A stretch of 64,000 bases of DNA, taken from Bdellovibrionales bacterium RIFOXYC1_FULL_37_79. Its GTDB lineage: Bacteria; Bdellovibrionota; Bacteriovoracia; Bacteriovoracales; Bacteriovoracaceae. Where the stretch lies: the NCBI GenBank assembly GCA_001770015.1, contig MEQB01000049.1, positions 1 to 64,000 of the forward strand, in the 5' to 3' direction. Position numbers and translations under genes: made by a program. Positions 34,403-48,801 of this stretch are shown here, piece by piece; the first letter of the stretch is position 1; the number at the start of each line of letters is the position of its first letter. A model generated the notes under the pieces. The model saw only the letters and a list, made by a program, of their open reading frames with translations. It did no database searches and was not told where the DNA came from.

Positions 34403-34834
34403 TTATTCTTTTCTGGTATCAACCACTTTATTAATTATTCTGGACCAATAATCAAATTTTTGAACCGCCATATTGACCACATTTTCCAGCTCATCAAAAT
34501 CGAAAGGCTTTTTTAAGTAAGAAAGAGCGCCATCATAAAAACATGCCGAACATAGGGCGAAAGAAGAAGATCCCGTCAGGATGATCACTTCACACTCTTG
34601 TTTCATGTTTTTGATTTCTCTTAAAACTTTATCCCCACTCATTTCAGGCATGGATAAATCCACAAAAGCTATATTGATGTCCTCGTTTTTAACAATATCT
34701 AGCCCTATAAGAGGATTAGGCGTGATAAAAACCTGTAACGTATCAGGATACTTTTGCTCAAGATACTGCTTTAAAATGTTTAATAAGGCTTCTTCATCAT
34801 CTATCACTAATAATTTATAAGGTCTTTTAATCAT
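34403..34834 (-). CDS. Single-domain response regulator
   Basis: 143 residues. The receiver is complete: acidic pair in LLVIDDEEAL, phospho-acceptor Asp in AFVDLSMPEMSG (about 59), Thr in ILTGSSS and Lys in YLKKPFDF. After the receiver there is only a short helix, so it has no DNA-binding output. It overlaps cheB by 4 bp, with GAGGA upstream, and is translated with it. It is the second free-standing receiver of the che operon and may be a phosphate sink or a second CheY. Confidence 0.85.
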   Translation of the reverse strand: MIKRPYKLLVIDDEEALLNILKQYLEQKYPDTLQVFITPNPLIGLDIVKNEDINIAFVDLSMPEMSGDKVLREIKNMKQECEVIILTGSSSFALCSACFYDGALSYLKKPFDFDELENVVNMAVQKFDYWSRIINKVVDTRKE

Positions 34835-35910
34835 TTTTTATCCTCGTTCATAAAATTTTTATTAATCAAATACTTTTTTATGTCCTCTAACGACATTTGC
34901 TTTGCCACGCCCCCCCTCTCAAAAGCAACTTTTGGCATACCATATACTGTAGAACTTTTTTCATCTTGTCCCAGCGTATATGCCCCTGCATCCTTCATTT
35001 CCAGTAAACCATTGGCACCATCATCTCCCATCCCGGTGAGAATGATGCCAAGTGCATTGGGACCAACCGTTTGGGATACACTCCGATAGAGTACATCCAC
35101 TGATGGTTTATGGCGATTTACCAGCTGGCCATCATTTAGTCTTACATAATATCTCGTTCCACTTCTTTCCACAAGCATATGTCGATTGCCGGGAGCAATA
35201 AGAATTTGTCCAGACAAGATGGTATCATTGTCTTCAGCTTCTTTAACCAGCATTTGGCATTCGTTATTTAATCTTTGCGCAAATGACCGAGTAAATCCCT
35301 CTGGCATGTGCTGGACTACCACAATTCCTGGTAATTCTGACGGCAATTCGGGTAGTAACTTGGACAGTGCCACGGTACCTCCTGTAGAAGCACCAATCGC
35401 AATCACTTTTTCCGTGGTAATAAAATCAATTTTTTTAGTCTTTTTCAGGAGGACTTCATCGGTAGAATATTTTTTTTCCACTTCTAATTTAGTGGTTTTT
35501 AATTGTTTGACTTTAGAAGTTACACAGGCATCCAGCTTATCCTTGATTTCTTCATGCAAATATTTAAGATTATCTTTAATCGCCGCAGTTGGTTTATGGA
35601 TATAATCGACTGCGCCAAGTTCCAGGCCTTTCAAGGCGAGATGAGAGTTTTTGGCCGTCAAAGAGGAAATTAAAAGAACCGGCATAGGTCTTAGTCTCAT
35701 TAATTTTTCTAAAAAAGTCAGTCCATCCATCTTGGGCATTTCCACGTCAAGCGTAATCACATCCGGTTTTAAAGTCATTATTTTTTCTGCACCAACATGG
35801 GGGTCTGGAGCAGTGCCTACGACCTCATATTCAGGAAAACTATTAATGATATTACTAAGCACCTCTCTAATTAAGGCTGAATCATCAATAATTAAAACTT
35901 TTTTTACCAT
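34831..35910 (-). CDS. cheB: Chemotaxis protein-glutamate methylesterase CheB
   Basis: 359 residues. The receiver (1-120) has VLIIDDSALIREVL and the phospho-Asp in ITLDVEMPKMDGL. The esterase domain (about 170-350) has the catalytic Ser in IGASTGG, His in VVQHMPEGF and Asp in LTGMGDDGANGL. The enzyme removes methyl groups from, and deamidates, chemoreceptors when phosphorylated by CheA. It is 13 bp after cheD in the operon and overlaps the following response regulator by 4 bp. Confidence 0.95.
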   Translation of the reverse strand: MVKKVLIIDDSALIREVLSNIINSFPEYEVVGTAPDPHVGAEKIMTLKPDVITLDVEMPKMDGLTFLEKLMRLRPMPVLLISSLTAKNSHLALKGLELGAVDYIHKPTAAIKDNLKYLHEEIKDKLDACVTSKVKQLKTTKLEVEKKYSTDEVLLKKTKKIDFITTEKVIAIGASTGGTVALSKLLPELPSELPGIVVVQHMPEGFTRSFAQRLNNECQMLVKEAEDNDTILSGQILIAPGNRHMLVERSGTRYYVRLNDGQLVNRHKPSVDVLYRSVSQTVGPNALGIILTGMGDDGANGLLEMKDAGAYTLGQDEKSSTVYGMPKVAFERGGVAKQMSLEDIKKYLINKNFMNEDKK

Positions 35911-35923
35911 GTATTATACCTGT

Positions 35924-36529
35924 TTAAAAGAATGTAATCTTATCGGTTTTATCTTCAAACGTTTTTTCTTTTTGCGATTCAATCGTTCTTTTGTATTTAG
36001 TTTCTTCTAGGATAATTTGATCTTTTTTATCCTTACCAATTCGAAATAATTTTACATGCCCAGTAGTTGTATCGAAATAAACTCTTCGAGCATGATCAAG
36101 CCCCACATCCCGGTTAATAATCGGAATCCCTTCCTGTGCCAGATATTCTTTACAAAATTCTATATTCTGTTCTCCCACCGAGACCCGGTCACTATCTTTG
36201 GCAAAACCAAACATATTGGCCCCACCAAACATTTTTGCCTTCAACCGACTTCTTTGTGCCCCCGCCTTCAGGGTTTCATTAATAAGCATCTCCATTGAAT
36301 TAATGCCATATTTGGCCTTTCCAAATACCAGATCCTCCACTTCCATGGTCGGACCGGGAAGCATATAATGGTTCATGCCACCCACTTTGGCATGAGGATC
36401 AAAAATGCAAGCAGAGATACATGATCCAAGAGTGGTACTGATAATTTCGCTTTGATTGGAAACAAAAAATTCACCTTGTCCAATAAAATACACATCCACC
36501 TTAAATCTTGCATCGTACATTTTTTTCAT
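35924..36529 (-). CDS. cheD: Chemoreceptor glutamine deamidase CheD
   Basis: 201 residues after AAGGTG, six bases before the ATG. The CheD core has the catalytic Cys in STTLGSCISACIFD and the His in VGGMNHYMLPGP. It deamidates receptor glutamines and may interact with CheC/CheX-type phosphatases, of which two relatives lie at 57-59 kb. The C-terminal 40 residues (KLFRIGKDKKDQIILEETKY onward) are charged and not part of the usual domain. It sits between cheR and cheB with gaps of 9 and 13 bp. Confidence 0.93.
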   Translation of the reverse strand: MKKMYDARFKVDVYFIGQGEFFVSNQSEIISTTLGSCISACIFDPHAKVGGMNHYMLPGPTMEVEDLVFGKAKYGINSMEMLINETLKAGAQRSRLKAKMFGGANMFGFAKDSDRVSVGEQNIEFCKEYLAQEGIPIINRDVGLDHARRVYFDTTTGHVKLFRIGKDKKDQIILEETKYKRTIESQKEKTFEDKTDKITFF

Positions 36530-36538
36530 TACAACACC

Positions 36539-37372
36539 TTATAACACTTTCGAGTAAATTGTGTTTTGTCTAAACTGATAAAGATCCTTATACATAAATA
36601 AATTCTCACTGTGCCCGACAAACAACGTCCCGGTATCCTTTAAATACTCATAAAACATCTTTAAAACATGGGATTTCATCTCTTCACTAAAATAAATCAT
36701 CACGTTTCGACAAAAAATCAGATCCATTGGTTCTTTTAACGGGTATCTCTTCTCCATCAAATTTAAGCGTCTAAATGAAATTTTATTTTTAATACTATCC
36801 TTTACTTTGATTTTGCCACCACTCACTCTATCAAAATATTTGTAATATTTATTAGCATGCACATGCTTGCCTAAATTTTTTTCATCATATATCCCACGAT
36901 AGGCCTCTTCCAAAACTTCCGTATTGACATCAGTTGCTAGAATTTTGTATTTAATGGACGGATTATTTTCATTGTATTCGTTGATGGTCATGGCAATGGA
37001 ATAAGGCTCCTCACCGCTGGAGCAAGCACTACTCCATATCCTCATTTCTTTGGTATCTGACAGATTTTTTTTTTCATTTTGCATCTGGGGTAGCAGCACA
37101 TTGGTCATATACTCAAAATGCTTGAATTCCCTAAAAAACGATGTCTCATTGGTGGTGATGCGATTAATAAGGTCTTCCATTTCCCGGGCGGGTTCCGCAC
37201 ATTCTTTGAGATAACTGATGTATTCCTGAAAAGTATTAATTCCCAGCTCTCTTAATTTGGAAGAAAAACGAGAAATCACCAGCACTTTTTTACTATCAGA
37301 CAATCTAATACCCAAAATTTTAAGTACTAATTCCTTAAGCGTATTAAATTCCGGGTCAGTTATTTGATACAT
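36539..37372 (-). CDS. cheR: Chemotaxis protein methyltransferase CheR
   Basis: 277 residues. The N-terminal helical domain (1-80) leads into the SAM domain with ITTNETSFFRE, WSSACSSGEEPYSIAM (SAM-binding), KILATDVNTEVLEEA and LIFCRNVMIYF. It methylates receptor glutamates in the cytoplasm, opposing CheB. It follows cheW by 5 bp and precedes cheD by 9 bp. There is no clear SD in front of its ATG, so it may depend on translational coupling to cheW. Confidence 0.95.
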   Translation of the reverse strand: MYQITDPEFNTLKELVLKILGIRLSDSKKVLVISRFSSKLRELGINTFQEYISYLKECAEPAREMEDLINRITTNETSFFREFKHFEYMTNVLLPQMQNEKKNLSDTKEMRIWSSACSSGEEPYSIAMTINEYNENNPSIKYKILATDVNTEVLEEAYRGIYDEKNLGKHVHANKYYKYFDRVSGGKIKVKDSIKNKISFRRLNLMEKRYPLKEPMDLIFCRNVMIYFSEEMKSHVLKMFYEYLKDTGTLFVGHSENLFMYKDLYQFRQNTIYSKVL

Positions 37373-37377
37373 ATTTT

Positions 37378-37947
37378 TTAGACTTCTTTGCTATCAGGCA
37401 ATTCTTGATTTTTACCACTTGATAAACCTTCAATCTCTTTATTGGTTAAAATTTTATCGATACTTAGGATAATAACGAACTTATCTCCCACTTTGCCCAC
37501 ACCACTTAAAAGCGAAGTATCGATATTCATGGCCATCTCTGGGGTATCTTCAATATTTTCCTTGTCAATGGTAAGAACATCACTAATTTTATCAACGATC
37601 ATTCCAATCGTCTTACTATTGCTTTTGAAGATAATAATGACTGATTTCTTATCAAAAACTTTTTCTTCCAATCCAAACCTAACCCTCGGGTCCATGATGG
37701 GAATCACATTCCCCCGTAAATTTAAAATACCTTTGATGTAATTGGGGGTATTGGGAAGAACCGTTAAATCCTTAAAAGCGGTGATCTCTTGAACTTTTTT
37801 TATATCGATTCCATAATCCTCACTACCAATGGAAAAAGTGACAAATTGATTTCCTCCGGTAGCCGATGAATTTAAAAGATTCATGAGGGCCTCTTTTATA
37901 TCGGCCTGTTTAACTTTCTTTTCTTCTTTTTTATCTTCCAAACTCAT
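37378..37947 (-). CDS. cheW: Chemotaxis coupling protein CheW
   Basis: 189 residues after AAGGGG. The CheW fold is marked by FVTFSIGSEDYGIDI, VQEITAF, LPNTPNYIKGILNLRGNVIP and VDKISDVLTI. It links receptors to CheA. Short charged tails extend both ends: the N-terminal 30 residues are Lys/Glu-rich and the last 15 hydrophilic. It is 23 bp after cheA and 5 bp before cheR. Confidence 0.95.
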   Translation of the reverse strand: MSLEDKKEEKKVKQADIKEALMNLLNSSATGGNQFVTFSIGSEDYGIDIKKVQEITAFKDLTVLPNTPNYIKGILNLRGNVIPIMDPRVRFGLEEKVFDKKSVIIIFKSNSKTIGMIVDKISDVLTIDKENIEDTPEMAMNIDTSLLSGVGKVGDKFVIILSIDKILTNKEIEGLSSGKNQELPDSKEV

Positions 37948-37970: not shown

Positions 37971-40148
37971 TCAGTTAGACGCTTGTGCATTAATATGTTT
38001 TTTATGTGTTATAATCGTGGTTTTTTTATAAAGCTTTACTAATTCACCTGGCTCAACAATGGGAGCAATACTTCCGTCCCCCAAAATGGTGGCCCCGGCA
38101 AATCCTTCAACATTACCGTAATTGTCATCAAGGCTTTTTAAAACGACTTGTTGTTTACCAATGATATCATCCACCAGGAATGAATATTGTTTATGATCCA
38201 CCGTAACATTTAAAACAATTGATTCTTCTGGTTTTTCGTTAGCATCCTTGATTTTAAAGACTTCAAACAACTTAATCAAGGTATTCGGTTTCCCCCGGAC
38301 ATCCATATATTCACCTTTGCCTTCAATCGTTCTTATACTTTGTTGTTTAGGTCGGATGGTCTCATCAACTGATAAAAGAGGAATTACAAATTTTTGTTTT
38401 CCTACCGTAAATAATAAACCCTCGATGATGGCAAGTGTGAGTGGCAAGCGAATGATAAAGGTGGTCCCCACATCTTTTTGGGTTTTAATATTGATTTGTC
38501 CATGTAATTCACCGATCGCTTTTTTTACCACATCAAGACCGACGCCTCTACCTGACACATCGGTCACTTCTTTGGCGGTTGAAAAACCAGGTACCATGAT
38601 TAATGCAAAAATCTGATCATCTGTCAGCATTTCATCTTTTTGAATAAGCCCTCTCTCGATCCCTTTTTGAATAATTCGTTCCCGATCCAGCCCTTTTCCA
38701 TCATCTGTTACTTCAATAAAAACGGCTCCCTCTTTTTGATAGGCCTTGAGTTGAATTAAAGCCTGAGGGTTTTTACCATTATCTTTTCTCTCGGTTTCAT
38801 TTTCAATACCGTGATCAATGGCATTCCGAACCAAATGCGTGAGGGGGTTATTTATTTTTTCTATGATATTTTTATCAAGTTCAGTTTCTTGTCCGGTTAA
38901 CACCAACCGGATATTTTTATTCATTTTCCCTGACAAATCTCGCACCAGTCGATGAAATTGGGAAAAAACCACATCTGCCGGAACCATCCGTGTACTCATA
39001 ATCCTTTCTTGCAGATCATTAATAATCCGAGAGGTTTCTTCACATTTTGAATGCATAAGTCTTTGCAGTTTTTTATCTGCAATTTCTTCAGAGAGAGTTC
39101 TAAGCCTTGATTCTGTAATAACCAATTCACCGACCAAATTCACCAAACTATCCAGTTTCTTGATATCCACCCTTACGGTGGTTGGAATCAGCTTTCTGGC
39201 CTCTTTTTGAGCGTCGAGCGCCTCATCTACATCCTTTTTGGAAACTTTCTTCTTTTCCACCAGAATTTCGCCAAGTTTTTTTTGTTCGCTGGCAGCTCGC
39301 TTGACATCTTCTTCGGAGACCTTGCCTTTTTCTATTAAAATATCTCCCAACCTTTTATCCACATTAATTTTTTCGGTACCATTATTTAAATACCTTCCCG
39401 TGACATCCTCGTATCTGATATCACTTTTGGATTTCACAAACATAAAAATATTCATGATTTCTTCAGGCATTTCCTGGGTTTTGACAATCAATTCCCAGGA
39501 AATGTAGAGCTTTTCAAAATCAAACTGGTCTATTTCAGGAATAGCTTGGGTGGAAGCCGTGATTGACACGATATCCCCGTATTCCTCAATCTCTCTAAAA
39601 AACATCAAGGGATCGGTACCAGTTGAAAGCAAATCCGCATCGAACCGAATAATAAATTGATAATACCGGTACGCTTCCCCACTTGGCACGGTGGCAGGCG
39701 AGGTTTTTTTATCGGCAGATGGCGGGGACTGTTGTTTATCTGCCTCCACCAAACCCAGTAATTTTTTAAAGGCCTCACTATCTGACAAAGGCCCAACATC
39801 TTTCTCGTTACTGATCAAGTCTGAAAAACCATCCCTCATGACATTGACTGCTTCAAACATCGTAGCGAGAATTTCTTTATTCAATTTCAATTTTTTGTCT
39901 TTGGCATCTGTCAAAACACTTTCAAAAGCATGCACAAATTCTGTCATATTATTATAAGACAACGTGGCAGCCGAAGCCTTTAAGGAATGAACAATCCTAA
40001 AGACCTCGTTGATTACCGGTGCCAGCATGTCCAAATCGTCAATATTATCTTCCAGAAATCTCATTTGATTTTCTAGTGAGGTTAGAAAATCACTGCATTC
40101 TTCTGCAAATATTTTTTTTAGTTTTGTATCTAAATCGTTAGATGCCAT
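37971..40148 (-). CDS. cheA: Chemotaxis histidine kinase CheA with tandem MshEN-like motifs
   Basis: 725 residues. P1/HPt has the phosphorylated His54 in RIVHSLKAS (the usual Gly is Ala). Residues 160-260 are a P2-like or regulatory region. Residues 266-289 and 291-314 are two 24-residue repeats, RLGDILIEKG...Q and KLGEILVEKK...Q, that match the MshEN cyclic-di-GMP motif pattern; the second lacks the Arg and Gly. P3 dimerisation follows (VDIKKLDSLVNLVGELVI), then P4 kinase (N box HLVRNAIDHGIE, G1 VTDDGKGLD, G2 SGRGVGLDVV) and the P5 CheW-like domain. It phosphorylates CheY and CheB. It is 20 bp after cheY. Confidence 0.95.
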   Translation of the reverse strand: MASNDLDTKLKKIFAEECSDFLTSLENQMRFLEDNIDDLDMLAPVINEVFRIVHSLKASAATLSYNNMTEFVHAFESVLTDAKDKKLKLNKEILATMFEAVNVMRDGFSDLISNEKDVGPLSDSEAFKKLLGLVEADKQQSPPSADKKTSPATVPSGEAYRYYQFIIRFDADLLSTGTDPLMFFREIEEYGDIVSITASTQAIPEIDQFDFEKLYISWELIVKTQEMPEEIMNIFMFVKSKSDIRYEDVTGRYLNNGTEKINVDKRLGDILIEKGKVSEEDVKRAASEQKKLGEILVEKKKVSKKDVDEALDAQKEARKLIPTTVRVDIKKLDSLVNLVGELVITESRLRTLSEEIADKKLQRLMHSKCEETSRIINDLQERIMSTRMVPADVVFSQFHRLVRDLSGKMNKNIRLVLTGQETELDKNIIEKINNPLTHLVRNAIDHGIENETERKDNGKNPQALIQLKAYQKEGAVFIEVTDDGKGLDRERIIQKGIERGLIQKDEMLTDDQIFALIMVPGFSTAKEVTDVSGRGVGLDVVKKAIGELHGQINIKTQKDVGTTFIIRLPLTLAIIEGLLFTVGKQKFVIPLLSVDETIRPKQQSIRTIEGKGEYMDVRGKPNTLIKLFEVFKIKDANEKPEESIVLNVTVDHKQYSFLVDDIIGKQQVVLKSLDDNYGNVEGFAGATILGDGSIAPIVEPGELVKLYKKTTIITHKKHINAQASN

Positions 40149-40168: not shown

Positions 40169-40555
40169 TTACACTTTTAAAAACTTTTTCATGACTCCTG
40201 CAATTTCATCTGGTGAAAGAGGTTTAGTAATCCATCCAGCTGCACCAAAATTTTTTCCTTGAATTTTTATTTCGTAGTCCCTTTCGGTGGTTAACACGAT
40301 AATGGGAATAAACTTGGTTTTAGGGTTTGCTTTTAATTTTTCTATTAATTCAATACCATTCATATTAGGCATATGAATATCCGTAAAAATAATAGTCGGC
40401 ATGCGTCCGGCCTTGACCACCTCATTAATTTTATTTAAAGCATCTTGCCCATCTTCCGCTAATAAACATTCAGCTGACACGAGTTTTGCCGCCTCCTCAT
40501 AAATCAAGCGATTAATTTTGGAGTCATCTACTCCTACCATAAAAATATTACTCAT
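40169..40555 (-). CDS. cheY: CheY-type response regulator
   Basis: 128 residues. A single receiver with VGVDDSKINR, phospho-Asp in IIFTDIHMPNMNG, Thr in VLTTERD and Lys in WITKPLSP. It receives phosphate from CheA, whose gene follows 20 bp later, and carries it to an output not found in the window. A GAGGGG lies eight to nine bases upstream of the ATG, and the start overlaps the HPt-STAS stop by 4 bp. Confidence 0.9.
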   Translation of the reverse strand: MSNIFMVGVDDSKINRLIYEEAAKLVSAECLLAEDGQDALNKINEVVKAGRMPTIIFTDIHMPNMNGIELIEKLKANPKTKFIPIIVLTTERDYEIKIQGKNFGAAGWITKPLSPDEIAGVMKKFLKV

Positions 40556-41274
40556 AAAACCATCCCCTCTAGGCCTAATCTTGCCAAGGTATCTAAAGAC
40601 TCCCTGTTGGTTATTTTAAAACTGATATTGAGATCCTTGGTTTTTTTCAAGGAAATCAAGTATTGTGCACCGGCCGTATCCAGCACCTCACTTTGGATTT
40701 TCACCATATATGATTTGCCCTTTTCAAATTTATTTTCCTTTAAAATTTCGCTCATATTAGCAATCGTAAGATTTTTATCAATAACAATGTCCATAACTTT
40801 GGCCCCTTGCTGGTTTTCTATTTTGTCTCCATGATCTTCTAAGTGAAATGGAGCTGCCTGAAGATGAGTGTTGTCAGATGCTGGTGCCTTCATACCAACG
40901 GAATTTTTAATAGCACTAATCCGGGCATCAAGCCCCTCATCAATTGGAAAATAATTTTTATCCCGACTAAGACCTTCCAACCAAGATTCAACAAATGAAT
41001 GCACATCCAAAAATAATTCTACATGGGTCAGATTAAAATCAATTTGTTTTTTTCGAAGCAAATCAATCACATCTTCCACTCTGTGTATAAATTCACCAAA
41101 TTTTCCCAGATCCACCATTTTAGAGGAACCTTTAATGTTATGGGCAATCCTGAATAATTCATTAAAATCAGGATTACTTGAATCTTTTTCCAAGGCCAAA
41201 CATTCGCTTTCCCATGTTTGCAACATATCAAGCACATCTTCCAAAAAAAAGGCCATCATGTCTGATTCGCCCAT
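40552..41274 (-). CDS. HPt-STAS two-domain protein in the che operon
   Basis: 240 residues from ATG 41274, which has GGAG five bases upstream; a TTG at 41295 lacks this support. Residues 1-100 are a histidine phosphotransfer domain with HNIKGSSKMV (phosphorylatable His about 46). Residues about 155-240 resemble a STAS domain with VLDTAGAQYLISL, where the Ser phosphorylated in SpoIIAA-type proteins is Ala. The fusion could shuttle phosphate and bind partners at once. It lies between the HD-GYP-like protein and cheY, overlapping cheY by 4 bp, so it is a core member of this operon. Confidence 0.8.
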   Translation of the reverse strand: MGESDMMAFFLEDVLDMLQTWESECLALEKDSSNPDFNELFRIAHNIKGSSKMVDLGKFGEFIHRVEDVIDLLRKKQIDFNLTHVELFLDVHSFVESWLEGLSRDKNYFPIDEGLDARISAIKNSVGMKAPASDNTHLQAAPFHLEDHGDKIENQQGAKVMDIVIDKNLTIANMSEILKENKFEKGKSYMVKIQSEVLDTAGAQYLISLKKTKDLNISFKITNRESLDTLARLGLEGMVL

Positions 41275-41285
41275 ATTCACTCCAT

Positions 41286-42614
41286 CTAATTGCAATAAAT
41301 CTCAAGCATTTCTTTAAAGGCATAATAAGGTGTTCGGTAATTTCCCTTATCAAATGTTCCCTTCATTTTATCAATCATCTTTAAACATTGGTCCCGATCC
41401 AGCACCTTATCGTAAATACTATTGACGAAGGTTTCACCAATAATAAACAAAGCCGCTATCTGTGAAACCTGGGTGGCCCTAAGTCCTCTGGGAAACCCCA
41501 GTCCATCTGGACGCTCATGATGGGTTAGAATTATGGAATCAACATCAGGAGGGATATCCTTCATGTTTCTCACCATTTCCGAGGCTTCCAATGCATGCAT
41601 TTTAATTCTCTGTTTATCTTGTTTGGACAAATCAGCTGCCTCGATCTCAGCCATAGAATCAATCATGGCCTCCTTGGAACTTTTTAAAACACAGTCATGT
41701 AAAATCGCCGAAAAAGTTATTTTTTGCAGGGATGAATCAGTATTCCATTTCATCCGCAGCGCTGCCAGAGAGGTTAAATAACCAATCAGCAATGAATGCT
41801 TGTGTAAATACCCCATTTTATCACTCATAAATTGTTCAAACAGATTTTTCAAGGTGGCAAGCTTTTTCACTGTTTCAATACAAGATAGGGTGATGTCATT
41901 TAACATGGTTTCCGTATCTTCATCAATTTTAAAATTTTGAATATTTCCACAGACCATTTTAATACCTTCAACCTGGGCATCCAACACGACATCCAAAGAG
42001 GTATTCATTTTGAGTTTTTCTTTAAGCTCACCATACATTTCCCGGATTAAACTGGGATAATCTGAAGTTTTGACGTAGAGATATTTCACCCTATCGCTAT
42101 ATTTAGTAATTTGTTCTTTATCATAATTTTCATCTTTGTTGATGATTTTTAGCATTTTGTCATCGGATAGCTTGACATAGACATCTGCATTCAGCTTTTT
42201 ATGTTTCAAAATCCGGCTAATTCCAATCCTGACAAATTTGGAAACTTCAATATTTTCTTTTTTTAAAATAATCTCTCTGACCAGCTTAAACAACTCCTCG
42301 CCAGATTGTTTTACATCAATGTAACCATTAAGTGGATTCACCTCATAGAAATCTTTTTCACATAATTGATCATAGGGCGTTTGGGTGTACCAGATAAAAG
42401 GAACATTGCTACCGGTTTTTTTTATAAAGTTAAAAAGTTTCAAAGACTGGGGCTGCGTGCCACCGGCCACTACCAACAAGACCTTATTATTTTTTAAAAT
42501 ATTTACAGCCTCATCAATATTTTCAGATATCAATGGGTCAACTTGTTGCAATTCCTTGATTTCCTCTTTTAGGGATTGAGGATTGTTTTCAATGGCAAAA
42601 AACAAAATCTTCAC
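41286..42614 (-). CDS. Pseudo-receiver plus HD-GYP-like protein, first gene of the che operon
   Basis: 442 residues from GTG 42614 (AAGGATG about nine bases upstream). The first 115 residues resemble a receiver with no acidic pair and no Asp at the end of strand three (LLVVAGGTQ). Residues about 265-430 are an HD-GYP domain with HKHS (271-274), HD in ILHDCV (306-307), a later His in KMHALEA, and HHERPDGLGFP (365-375), close to HHExxDGxGYP. It may therefore hydrolyse cyclic-di-GMP. It is 11 bp before the HPt-STAS gene and follows a good promoter. Confidence 0.8.
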   Translation of the reverse strand: MKILFFAIENNPQSLKEEIKELQQVDPLISENIDEAVNILKNNKVLLVVAGGTQPQSLKLFNFIKKTGSNVPFIWYTQTPYDQLCEKDFYEVNPLNGYIDVKQSGEELFKLVREIILKKENIEVSKFVRIGISRILKHKKLNADVYVKLSDDKMLKIINKDENYDKEQITKYSDRVKYLYVKTSDYPSLIREMYGELKEKLKMNTSLDVVLDAQVEGIKMVCGNIQNFKIDEDTETMLNDITLSCIETVKKLATLKNLFEQFMSDKMGYLHKHSLLIGYLTSLAALRMKWNTDSSLQKITFSAILHDCVLKSSKEAMIDSMAEIEAADLSKQDKQRIKMHALEASEMVRNMKDIPPDVDSIILTHHERPDGLGFPRGLRATQVSQIAALFIIGETFVNSIYDKVLDRDQCLKMIDKMKGTFDKGNYRTPYYAFKEMLEIYCN

Positions 42615-45567: not shown

Positions 45568-46380
45568 ATGTCAGTCATTCAAAATTGCAGATTTCTTTTA
45601 ATAAGTTCTGGTACCGAAATCATGACTCCTTTACAACAAAAATTAGATGAGCTGGGAGTACTGCACTTCGAAATATGCTTAATGATCAAGGCCGCTAAAC
45701 CCTTTATTAATAAGTCGCTAACTAACGGACACATTTTTCAATATATCATAGTGGATGAAGACTGCGGCAAAGAGGAGGAGATCTTGTCATTTTATTCCTA
45801 CCTTGAAACACTTGAAAAATACAAAGATACCAAATTTATCTATATTAAAACATCAGTGGATTCCTTTACCTCTGGCCCTAAAATCAAAAGTTCACTTGAA
45901 CTGGAAAGTAACTCTAATATCAAATTTTATTCCAAACCTCTTGACTGCAAATTGCTTATTAAAGATATTGAAAAAATGTTCCTTACGACTTTTGATGAGA
46001 ACAAGGATTTTATTGAATCCATACCGATTGACGATTGTATCATTTATAAGATGGGCCCTATCATTGACAAAACCACCGCCAGAGAGATGGAAAAAATTAT
46101 TTTAAGGGCCATCCAAAAACAACAAAATACCCTGATTTTTAATTTTAAAAACACTCTAAGTTTTCCCAGCGCTGAAATGAAACATATCTCTCAAATTTTG
46201 TTAAAATCTCAAAAAGATTATCCTTTTATCCACACCACCTCTTTTACCAGCGATGTTTTAGCTGAAATGAGAAAAGGTGGCTTCACTCAGGTATTTGATA
46301 CCAAAACCAGTTTTAAAGATCTGGTGCTGAAATATAAGATTAATACTGAAAAATTAAAAAAAATTTTGGTATCCATCTAA
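45568..46380 (+). CDS. Pseudo-receiver plus STAS-like protein
   Basis: 270 residues with AAGGAG and GAGGAT upstream. Residues 1-130 resemble a receiver (RFLLISSGTEI; FQYIIVDEDCG; KFIYIKTS; IKFYSKPLD). The Lys-Pro is kept and an Asp ends strand three, but the N-terminal acidic pair is missing. Residues 150-265 look STAS-like (ILRAIQKQQNTLIFNFKNTL, then SAEMKHISQIL) without the canonical DSSG. It resembles the middle of the 58213-59574 protein. It may be a protein-interaction adaptor in the chemotaxis-like network. It overlaps the opposing PilZ gene by 4 bp. Confidence 0.65.
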   Translation: MSVIQNCRFLLISSGTEIMTPLQQKLDELGVLHFEICLMIKAAKPFINKSLTNGHIFQYIIVDEDCGKEEEILSFYSYLETLEKYKDTKFIYIKTSVDSFTSGPKIKSSLELESNSNIKFYSKPLDCKLLIKDIEKMFLTTFDENKDFIESIPIDDCIIYKMGPIIDKTTAREMEKIILRAIQKQQNTLIFNFKNTLSFPSAEMKHISQILLKSQKDYPFIHTTSFTSDVLAEMRKGGFTQVFDTKTSFKDLVLKYKINTEKLKKILVSI

Positions 46381-47477
46381 TAGCTTTTAATAATTTCTTT
46401 TATACGCTTGGTGATTTTACTATTTAAGTTTATAAATTGCACTCCAAAACCGTTGTGGGTACCGCCCTGCCTTTTATTTCTTACCACTGAGTGAATCGAC
46501 ATATCTTGGCCGGTAAGATCAATCAAATAATTATCCCCAATATGTAATTCCCGACTTTCACCAATAAAGGCTCCTTCGGGAGAAATATTTTGAATGATTC
46601 CATCGATCACCTCATTTTCTGGTGAAATTAATTTGCAGGCCAGGTTCACTTCGATTCTTCTTTGCTTTCTCCACCAGACTTTAGTCATATCCGCAAATCT
46701 TTTTCTTTCATCACTTAGAAATAAGTAAACAATCAGCAACACGTTGATCAATAAAAGCAGCAAGGATGAAACATGTGGGGCCTTGCTGACATAGGGCCAG
46801 GTAAATTTTTGATAGGTTAAATGGGCAAAGATGGAATAAATCTGCAATAACAGAAAGATAATAAAAAACATCTTTCTAAAAAACAATAAAAGCAAACCAC
46901 TGACGGGAAACAACAGCCAAAACTGAATAAATTTCAATCCCAGAGGTATTCTTTTAATATTATCCAAAACGGTCAATATTGAAAAATCGGTCATCATCCA
47001 CAGATAGAGAATTTTCATGAATGGTTCAAACAATAAAAAAACTATCACCACTTTAAAAATTACCGGCAACTCCCGTTTGGAAAAACGCTTCAATCTTTCA
47101 TCCAGCTTATGCACCAAGTTTCGATTTGGCTTAATACGATTGTAAATTTTTTTCAGCTCATCATAGTCGCCCTTAATTGTCGGATATATATACATGGATG
47201 AATGTTTGGATTTTAATTCCATTTGTATTGCGTTACTACTCGTTAGAATGATAATCGGTATCTCATGTAAACAGCAGATATCTATAATACGGTCCATTTC
47301 GTTACAAGTGGCCTCGTCATACTCGGTGATAATCAGCTTAGGCCTTTCCAATAAGATATCATTCATTAATGAATTAATGTTTTTAAAAATCACTAACGAA
47401 TCATGGCCTTCATGGATTTGTCCATTTTGCATTGATTGATAAATTAGATCCATGGGGTCGTTAAGAAAAATCTTCAT
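46377..47477 (-). CDS. Membrane PilZ protein with pseudo-receiver
   Basis: 366 residues after AAGGA. The first 115 residues resemble a receiver in which the phospho-Asp position is Glu (LIITEYDEA), a possible constitutive mimic. Then come about four membrane segments (about 130-150, 175-200, 203-222, 235-255). A C-terminal PilZ domain (about 265-366) has RKQRR (RxxxR) and NISPEGAFI (NxSxxG), so it should bind cyclic-di-GMP at the inner membrane. It overlaps the 3' end of the STAS-like gene by 4 bp. Confidence 0.82.
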   Translation of the reverse strand: MKIFLNDPMDLIYQSMQNGQIHEGHDSLVIFKNINSLMNDILLERPKLIITEYDEATCNEMDRIIDICCLHEIPIIILTSSNAIQMELKSKHSSMYIYPTIKGDYDELKKIYNRIKPNRNLVHKLDERLKRFSKRELPVIFKVVIVFLLFEPFMKILYLWMMTDFSILTVLDNIKRIPLGLKFIQFWLLFPVSGLLLLFFRKMFFIIFLLLQIYSIFAHLTYQKFTWPYVSKAPHVSSLLLLLINVLLIVYLFLSDERKRFADMTKVWWRKQRRIEVNLACKLISPENEVIDGIIQNISPEGAFIGESRELHIGDNYLIDLTGQDMSIHSVVRNKRQGGTHNGFGVQFINLNSKITKRIKEIIKSY

Positions 47478-48036: not shown

Positions 48037-48120
48037 ATCCTGAAAATAAAAAAAACTTTATCATTTTTATCATTTGTCTTATCATTAAGCTAAACTGTGT
48101 TTAAAAAAAATGAGAGACCT

Positions 48121-48801
48121 ATGAGAATATTATTAGTCGATGACCATGAAGCAATCCGGGACATATATGAAATATTTTTAACCAGCTATTTTAATTGTGA
48201 TGTCATCCAAGCAGAGTCAGTGGTAGCGGCGGCCACAGAAATACTTAAAAATACCAAAAACATTGATATCATTGTGTCCGATTACCATATGCCAGAAGGA
48301 AATGGCGGGGTGCTTTATACCTATGTCAAAAAATATCTACCCGAAACACCTTTTATTCTTTTCACCTCAAATGTTGGCATCATTGACACTGACATTGTCT
48401 TTAAAAATTTTTTTAAAGATAATCCTTATAATAGTGTCATTTCCAAACCTTGTCCGGCAGATGAGTTTGCCTTTATTGTGGGAAATATTTATCAGGAATC
48501 AAACTCATGTGCTTTAAAGCGTATTTACCCAAGAAAACATGATCGTTATAATATGGTAGTGGATGCTTCCATTAAATTTACTGCTAACGAGCAGATCAAA
48601 TACACCAAGGTCATGAATCTTTCAAATGGTGGCATGTTTGTCCGCTTGGATGATCAATTTCCTACCACCAATTCTTTCATTGAATATGGCCTGTTGTCGG
48701 GTAATTTAAACCAACCTCATGGACGTGGAATCGTCAGATGGGTAAGGGATAAAAAAGTCAATCATTTACTCACTGGTTGTGGAGTGGAATTTATTCAATA
48801 G
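48121..48801 (+). CDS. Response regulator with PilZ output
   Basis: 226 residues from ATG 48121, which gives the normal receiver start MRILLVDDHEAI; a GTG at 48097 would add eight residues. The receiver has the acidic pair DD, phospho-Asp in IIVSDYHMPEGNG, Thr in LFTSNVG and Lys in VISKPCP. PilZ (about 135-226) has RKHDR (RxxxR) and NLSNGGMFV (NxSxxG). Both inputs look functional, unlike the paralogue at 43610-44278. It is a likely output of the chemotaxis-like pathway in which phosphorylation and cyclic-di-GMP meet. Confidence 0.88.
   Translation: MRILLVDDHEAIRDIYEIFLTSYFNCDVIQAESVVAAATEILKNTKNIDIIVSDYHMPEGNGGVLYTYVKKYLPETPFILFTSNVGIIDTDIVFKNFFKDNPYNSVISKPCPADEFAFIVGNIYQESNSCALKRIYPRKHDRYNMVVDASIKFTANEQIKYTKVMNLSNGGMFVRLDDQFPTTNSFIEYGLLSGNLNQPHGRGIVRWVRDKKVNHLLTGCGVEFIQ

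Follow-up and report, generated by a model that had tools for sequence, protein, structure and literature searches.

The chemotaxis kinase CheA is usually viewed as being controlled via chemoreceptors and CheW. Elsewhere cyclic-di-GMP (c-di-GMP) reaches chemotaxis via MapZ acting on CheR1 (P. aeruginosa) or via c-di-GMP-binding chemoreceptors (PMC12564702), that is, through an adaptor on CheR or a receptor and not through a domain within CheA. Wang et al. 2016 (PMC5013675) had already recorded an association of the MshEN domain with CheA, so that the MshEN-CheA architecture is not new. Our literature search turned up no study that tested the function of a CheA fusion of this kind, and neither MshEN nor c-di-GMP was seen to be mentioned in a survey of CheA architectures published in 2023 (PMC10782961).

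The ligand contacts of this domain family have been described for MshE and PilF. In MshE, c-di-GMP is held by both Gly3 backbone amides, which recognise guanine, by both Gln24 side chains, which form hydrogen bonds to ribose and phosphate, by position 1, and by triads of Leu2, Leu17 and Leu21 (PMC5013675). Mutations in PilF GSPII-A identified Gln24, position 1 and Gly3 as the most important positions, with Leu17 and Leu21 replaceable by other large hydrophobic residues; even with a full consensus GSPII-A did not bind, owing to its context (PMC12002112). PilF GSPII-B, with a lysine (K167) at position 1, binds at 6 nM, Lys can even outdo Arg, and an extended consensus gives R/K/L at position 1 (PMC11731258).

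A tandem motif between P2 and P3 of CheA

Within the 64,000-nucleotide stretch of Bdellovibrionales bacterium RIFOXYC1_FULL_37_79 analysed here (the window), a CheA was identified with P1, P3, P4 and P5 all present, including the phospho-acceptor His, invariant in the ortholog alignment, and the ATPase boxes (Table 1). The surrounding operon runs in the order HD-GYP-like, Hpt, CheY, CheA, CheW, CheR, CheD, CheB, REC. The initial annotation had described two 24-residue repeats in CheA resembling the MshEN motif, and their coordinates proved exact: residues 266-289 (RLGDILIEKGKVSEEDVKRAASEQ) and 291-314 (KLGEILVEKKKVSKKDVDEALDAQ) correspond to 39353-39207 on the minus strand. The repeats share 13 of 24 residues, with an ungapped BLOSUM62 score of 64; the top-scoring 24-mer pair in the whole protein is this same pair with an offset of one residue, which scores 67, while none of 200 shuffled versions of CheA exceeded 50.

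Table 1. Coordinates of CheA, its domains and the neighbouring che genes in the window
Feature	Position	Strand	Evidence
HD-GYP-like protein (HHERPDGLGFP), first che-cluster gene	41286..42614	-	PF13487 8.8e-12
Hpt-domain protein	40552..41295	-	PF01627 4.4e-10
CheY-like response regulator	40169..40555	-	PF00072 8.7e-19
CheA, 725 aa: P1 (Hpt), P2, MshEN_N-like module, P3, P4, P5	37971..40148	-	ORF; Pfam CheW, H-kinase_dim, HATPase_c, Hpt, weak P2
P1 / Hpt, residues 11-96, phospho-acceptor His54 in HSLKAS motif	39861..40118	-	PF01627 E=2.8e-9
P2, residues about 161-250	39399..39668	-	PF07194 weak, E=0.014; alpha/beta fold in full-length AlphaFold2 model
MshEN_N-like (c-di-GMP_motif) module, residues 266-314	39207..39353	-	NF053729 71.6 bits (sum over three overlapping stretches), cut-off 38; AlphaFold2, Foldseek
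Motif I, residues 266-289 (Arg266, Gly268, Gly275, Ala286, Gln289)	39282..39353	-	sequence
Motif II, residues 291-314 (Lys291, Gly293, Lys300, Leu311, Gln314)	39207..39278	-	sequence
P3 dimerisation domain, residues 323-385	38994..39182	-	PF02895 E=1.2e-18
P4 ATPase, residues 435-571	38436..38846	-	PF02518 E=2.2e-16
P5 CheW-like, residues 576-705	38034..38423	-	PF01584 E=1.8e-21
CheW	37378..37947	-	PF01584 3.9e-35
CheR	36539..37372	-	PF01739 5.9e-62
CheD	35924..36529	-	PF03975 8.4e-33
CheB	34831..35910	-	PF01339 7.7e-65
Single-domain response regulator	34403..34834	-	PF00072 5.7e-22

Homology and predicted fold of the module

Searches with the NCBIfam model NF053729 ('c-di-GMP_motif, MshE-related') matched CheA above its curated cut-off (E=3.4e-20), the bit score being split over stretches because the short spacer interrupts the alignment; the best stretch aligns residues 266-314 to profile positions 1-53. 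At the DNA level the best single stretch in cheA reached 28.5 bits, or 57.4 bits with its neighbours, while the closest ortholog (L073) scored 51.7 bits in one stretch, and the model matched 15 of the 15 module sequences tested. Matches to proteins of known structure were also obtained: phmmer with a 70-residue CheA segment retrieved PilF (E=2e-11) and MshE (5htl, E=7.6e-5) from the PDB, and a profile built from the 15 module sequences alone, with no traffic ATPase included, retrieved V. cholerae MshE (5htl, 4.8e-10, spanning both motifs), PilB (1e-9) and PilF. Together, these matches lie far above noise and make homology of the module to the c-di-GMP-binding subdomain of MshE and PilF well supported at the level of sequence.

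The MshEN profile search called for by the initial annotation thus succeeded with NF053729, while the Pfam model PF05157 (MshEN) gave no match to CheA. In genuine PilB proteins (e.g. L001:1288-3021, +) PF05157 begins after the two motifs, and because the model covers this C-terminal subdomain its silence on CheA is uninformative; we therefore dropped it as a decisive test of the module. The relaxed 24-residue search pattern of Wang et al. 2016 likewise failed on both repeats at position 11, and on the second also at position 10, a failure that is not decisive because the genome's own PilB fails as well. Pfam-based annotation overlooks the CheA module, a segment of about 55 residues between flexible hinges, and surveys relying on Pfam only will overlook isolated MshEN_N modules in general, PF05157 covering the subdomain that follows the c-di-GMP motifs.

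A template-free AlphaFold2 prediction for residues 252-338, based on the 15-row alignment, showed four helices with moderate confidence (block means 72-78). Among PDB structures, the ten best Foldseek matches of this model were all c-di-GMP-bound MshEN or PilF GSPII-B (prob 0.99-1.00), with an rmsd of 1.1-1.3 Å over about 55 columns except for one at 2.3 Å; 5htl and 8pdk matched at about 1.2 Å and prob 1.00, and E-values were no better than 0.09-0.5 owing to the short query. The same helices (267-273, 279-286, 292-298 and 304-319) were recovered between P2 and P3 in a full-length model, for which the alignment comprised the window and locus proteins with the Pseudomonas row left out; here the module helices have pLDDT of about 77-85, and the hinges on either side, at 261-264 and 320-324, are modelled with low confidence. 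These predictions bear out the MshEN-like assignment of the initial annotation, and a four-helix MshEN_N-type fold is well supported by the models. In both models helix 2 stops three residues short of Gln289, which is how the predicted structure accommodates the shortened spacer, and Gln289 may therefore not sit as it does in MshE.

We also considered whether charged helical hairpins in the CheA linker might resemble a repeat by chance alone, an explanation favoured by the K/E/L/V-biased composition of the segment and by weak off-target Pfam matches. Given the curated and PDB profile matches, the MshEN fold predicted by AlphaFold2, a repeat score beyond all shuffles and conservation among orthologs, we regard such an origin as highly improbable. 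Of the off-target matches, FumaraseC_C and DUF1319 look like composition effects and were set aside. DUF4388 is perhaps related to the module, and it also weakly matches the motif of real PilB; one protein with the same tandem motif (L083:1512-1778, -) reads like a DUF4388-type protein and was rejected as a module-bearing CheA, and DUF4388 may generally contain an MshEN_N-type element. This protein was kept in the 15-row module alignment (A3) and excluded from the conservation counts below.

Ligand-contact positions and spacer length

With residues 1-62 of V. cholerae MshE (5htl) and with NF053729, the CheA module shares two tandem 24-residue motifs that each contain Gly3 and Gln24, a fold predicted as a four-helix bundle and, in part, the hydrophobic pattern. 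Among the positions that contact c-di-GMP in MshE, CheA retains Arg266, Leu267, Gly268, Gln289, Lys291, Leu292, Gly293, Leu311 and Gln314. Across 13 CheA modules, Gly3 is present in 26 of 26 motifs and Gln24 in 25 of 26, while position 1 is always Lys or Arg in motif II and free in motif I, counts that are partly biased by the profile used in finding the modules. The alignment with related CheAs proposed in the initial annotation therefore shows conservation that includes the ligand-contact positions. That annotation had also correctly read Lys at both position 1 and the turn Gly of the second repeat, although its treatment of the Lys for Arg substitution as a weakness was unfounded: both Arg266 and Lys291 lie within the extended consensus, and PilF GSPII-B binds with Lys at this position (PMC11731258).

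Unlike MshE, the CheA module has a single residue, a Lys, between its motifs as opposed to five, as the initial annotation had noted, so that the spacer of about five residues given for MshEN by Wang et al. 2016 is absent. It also differs in having Lys at position 1 of motif II and in place of its turn Gly (Lys300), Ala286 and valines in the stacking triads, no MshEN_C subdomain, and a location inside CheA; at position 11, moreover, Lys takes the place of the hydrophobic residue. Leu267, Leu292 and Leu311 of the triads are kept, whereas Val282 and Val307 occupy position 17, and the small Ala286 stands for Leu29 of one guanine-stacking triad, an alanine common to the three closest module-bearing orthologs. 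The best Foldseek and phmmer matches, GSPII-B and GSPII-C of Thermus thermophilus PilF (8pdk, 8pfa, 6f8l), tolerate Lys at position 1, and motif II of GSPII-B is one residue shorter, showing that length variation occurs; they differ from the CheA module in belonging to a traffic ATPase, in their spacers of 5 and 7 residues and in possessing the C-terminal subdomain. Spacers of 5 and 7 were also found in the traffic ATPases sampled from the phylum, compared with 1-2 in most CheA modules, giving repeat periods of 29-31 in the former and 25-26 (31 in one) in the latter. No solved c-di-GMP binder with a spacer as short as 1 was found.

The one-residue spacer, Ala286 and Lys300 are thus, on comparison with known binders, real weak points for binding. 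Together with Val at position 17, they raise a less probable but by no means negligible alternative, namely that the module is a degenerate MshEN_N bundle that no longer binds c-di-GMP, its role being to space P2 and P3 structurally or to provide a docking element for proteins between them; non-binding MshEN domains do exist, as in XpsE and PilF GSPII-A. XpsE, however, lost Gly3 twice (G11V, G40L) along with Arg38 and Gln61; the CheA modules, in contrast, keep Gly3 and Gln24 almost without exception. The altered stacking pocket might alternatively accommodate another cyclic nucleotide or related ligand, and MshEN does bind cGAMP weakly (KD 3.3e-4 M; PMC5013675), but backbone recognition by Gly3 in MshEN is guanine-specific and we consider this improbable. 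Since the polar contacts are kept while a stacking residue and the spacer deviate, binding of c-di-GMP is likely but not assured, and on these residues we predict it with somewhat better than even confidence.

We therefore favour, with similar reserve, a reading of residues about 265-319 as a short-spacer MshEN_N module between P2 and P3 that probably lets c-di-GMP tune CheA. The messenger would be clamped in the groove between the motifs by the backbone amides of both Gly3 residues and the side chains of both Gln24 residues, and binding might stiffen or reposition the segment through which the mobile P1-P2 arm is attached to the P3-P4 core. CheA autophosphorylation or phosphotransfer could then follow the concentration of c-di-GMP in addition to chemoreceptor input. 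Direct sensing of c-di-GMP by CheA is thus plausible from the conserved residues and, if true, would tie chemotactic signalling to the switch between motile and sessile life at the level of the kinase, where elsewhere PilZ adaptors or receptors provide the link.

Distribution of the module and c-di-GMP signalling context

Although the motif itself occurs in 231 of the 242 good genomes of the phylum, carried among the cases listed mostly by frames of 570-600 aa, the size of traffic ATPases, its combination with P3 was detected in only 12 CheA genes from 10 of 369 genomes. In a tree of 66 CheA cores, module-bearing proteins fall in several separate places, corresponding to 7 changes, at least 5 of which are forced by well-supported branches. 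Such recurrence across separate CheA lineages argues against a merely degenerate bundle. Within the window's own ortholog group the module is present in four of five members, the exception being a close CheA ortholog (L007:1468-3696, +) with a Thr/Ala/Glu-rich low-complexity linker in its place; this absence we count against binding and in favour of a non-binding structural bundle. The same protein offers a natural module-less comparison.

Binding in the CheA of the window remains our preferred reading, and the module is carried by each of the genome's three clear CheAs, which belong to three distinct lineages and, together with PilB, are the only NF053729 carriers of the genome. The other two, L048 (on contig C12) and L049 (on contig C26), have 2-residue spacers, motif I of L049 being short by one residue. 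Relative to Wang et al. 2016, three things appear to be new: the short form of the spacer, the repeated occurrence of this form across several CheA lineages, and its being found in every clear CheA, three in number, of a single genome. We tentatively propose, with somewhat less than an even chance, that MshEN_N modules with spacers of 1-2 residues define a class in several CheA lineages that makes these kinases c-di-GMP receptors, with the messenger directly setting all three chemosensory systems of this bacterium. A search for related loci in genome contigs returned only one distant Nitrosomonas kinase. Beyond the phylum, where sampling comprised plasmids, one Pseudomonas CheA with the module was identified (L121:2209-4392, Pseudomonas sp. 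HR96 plasmid NZ_CP139142.1), its tandem motif lying between P2 and P3 with a long spacer of about 12 residues; such fusions therefore occur outside the phylum too.

The HD-GYP-like gene heading the che cluster is counted in favour of a tuning role for the module. Its product shows a similarity that stays below the cut-off (4.8e-14) to c-di-GMP phosphodiesterase regulators of the NosR family and has GFP where GYP is expected. The gene is syntenic in G142 (L098:12046-13410) and absent from G086 and from the module-less G019; being present in two of four module-bearing orthologous clusters (the window and G142), with the contig of a further such cluster, G085, ending before the gene could show, it was rejected as a constant partner of the module. 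The genome as a whole encodes 4 GGDEF proteins with intact motifs, 1 EAL, 15 HD_5 and 17 PilZ matches, and c-di-GMP is therefore very likely made and its signalling active. The only EAL protein (L104:14588-15442, contig C26 of genome G000) lies about 3.6 kb downstream of a second module-bearing CheA, and two PilZ-domain proteins, at 46377-47477 (-) and 48097-48801 (+, a REC-PilZ fusion), are encoded no more than 9 kb from the che cluster.
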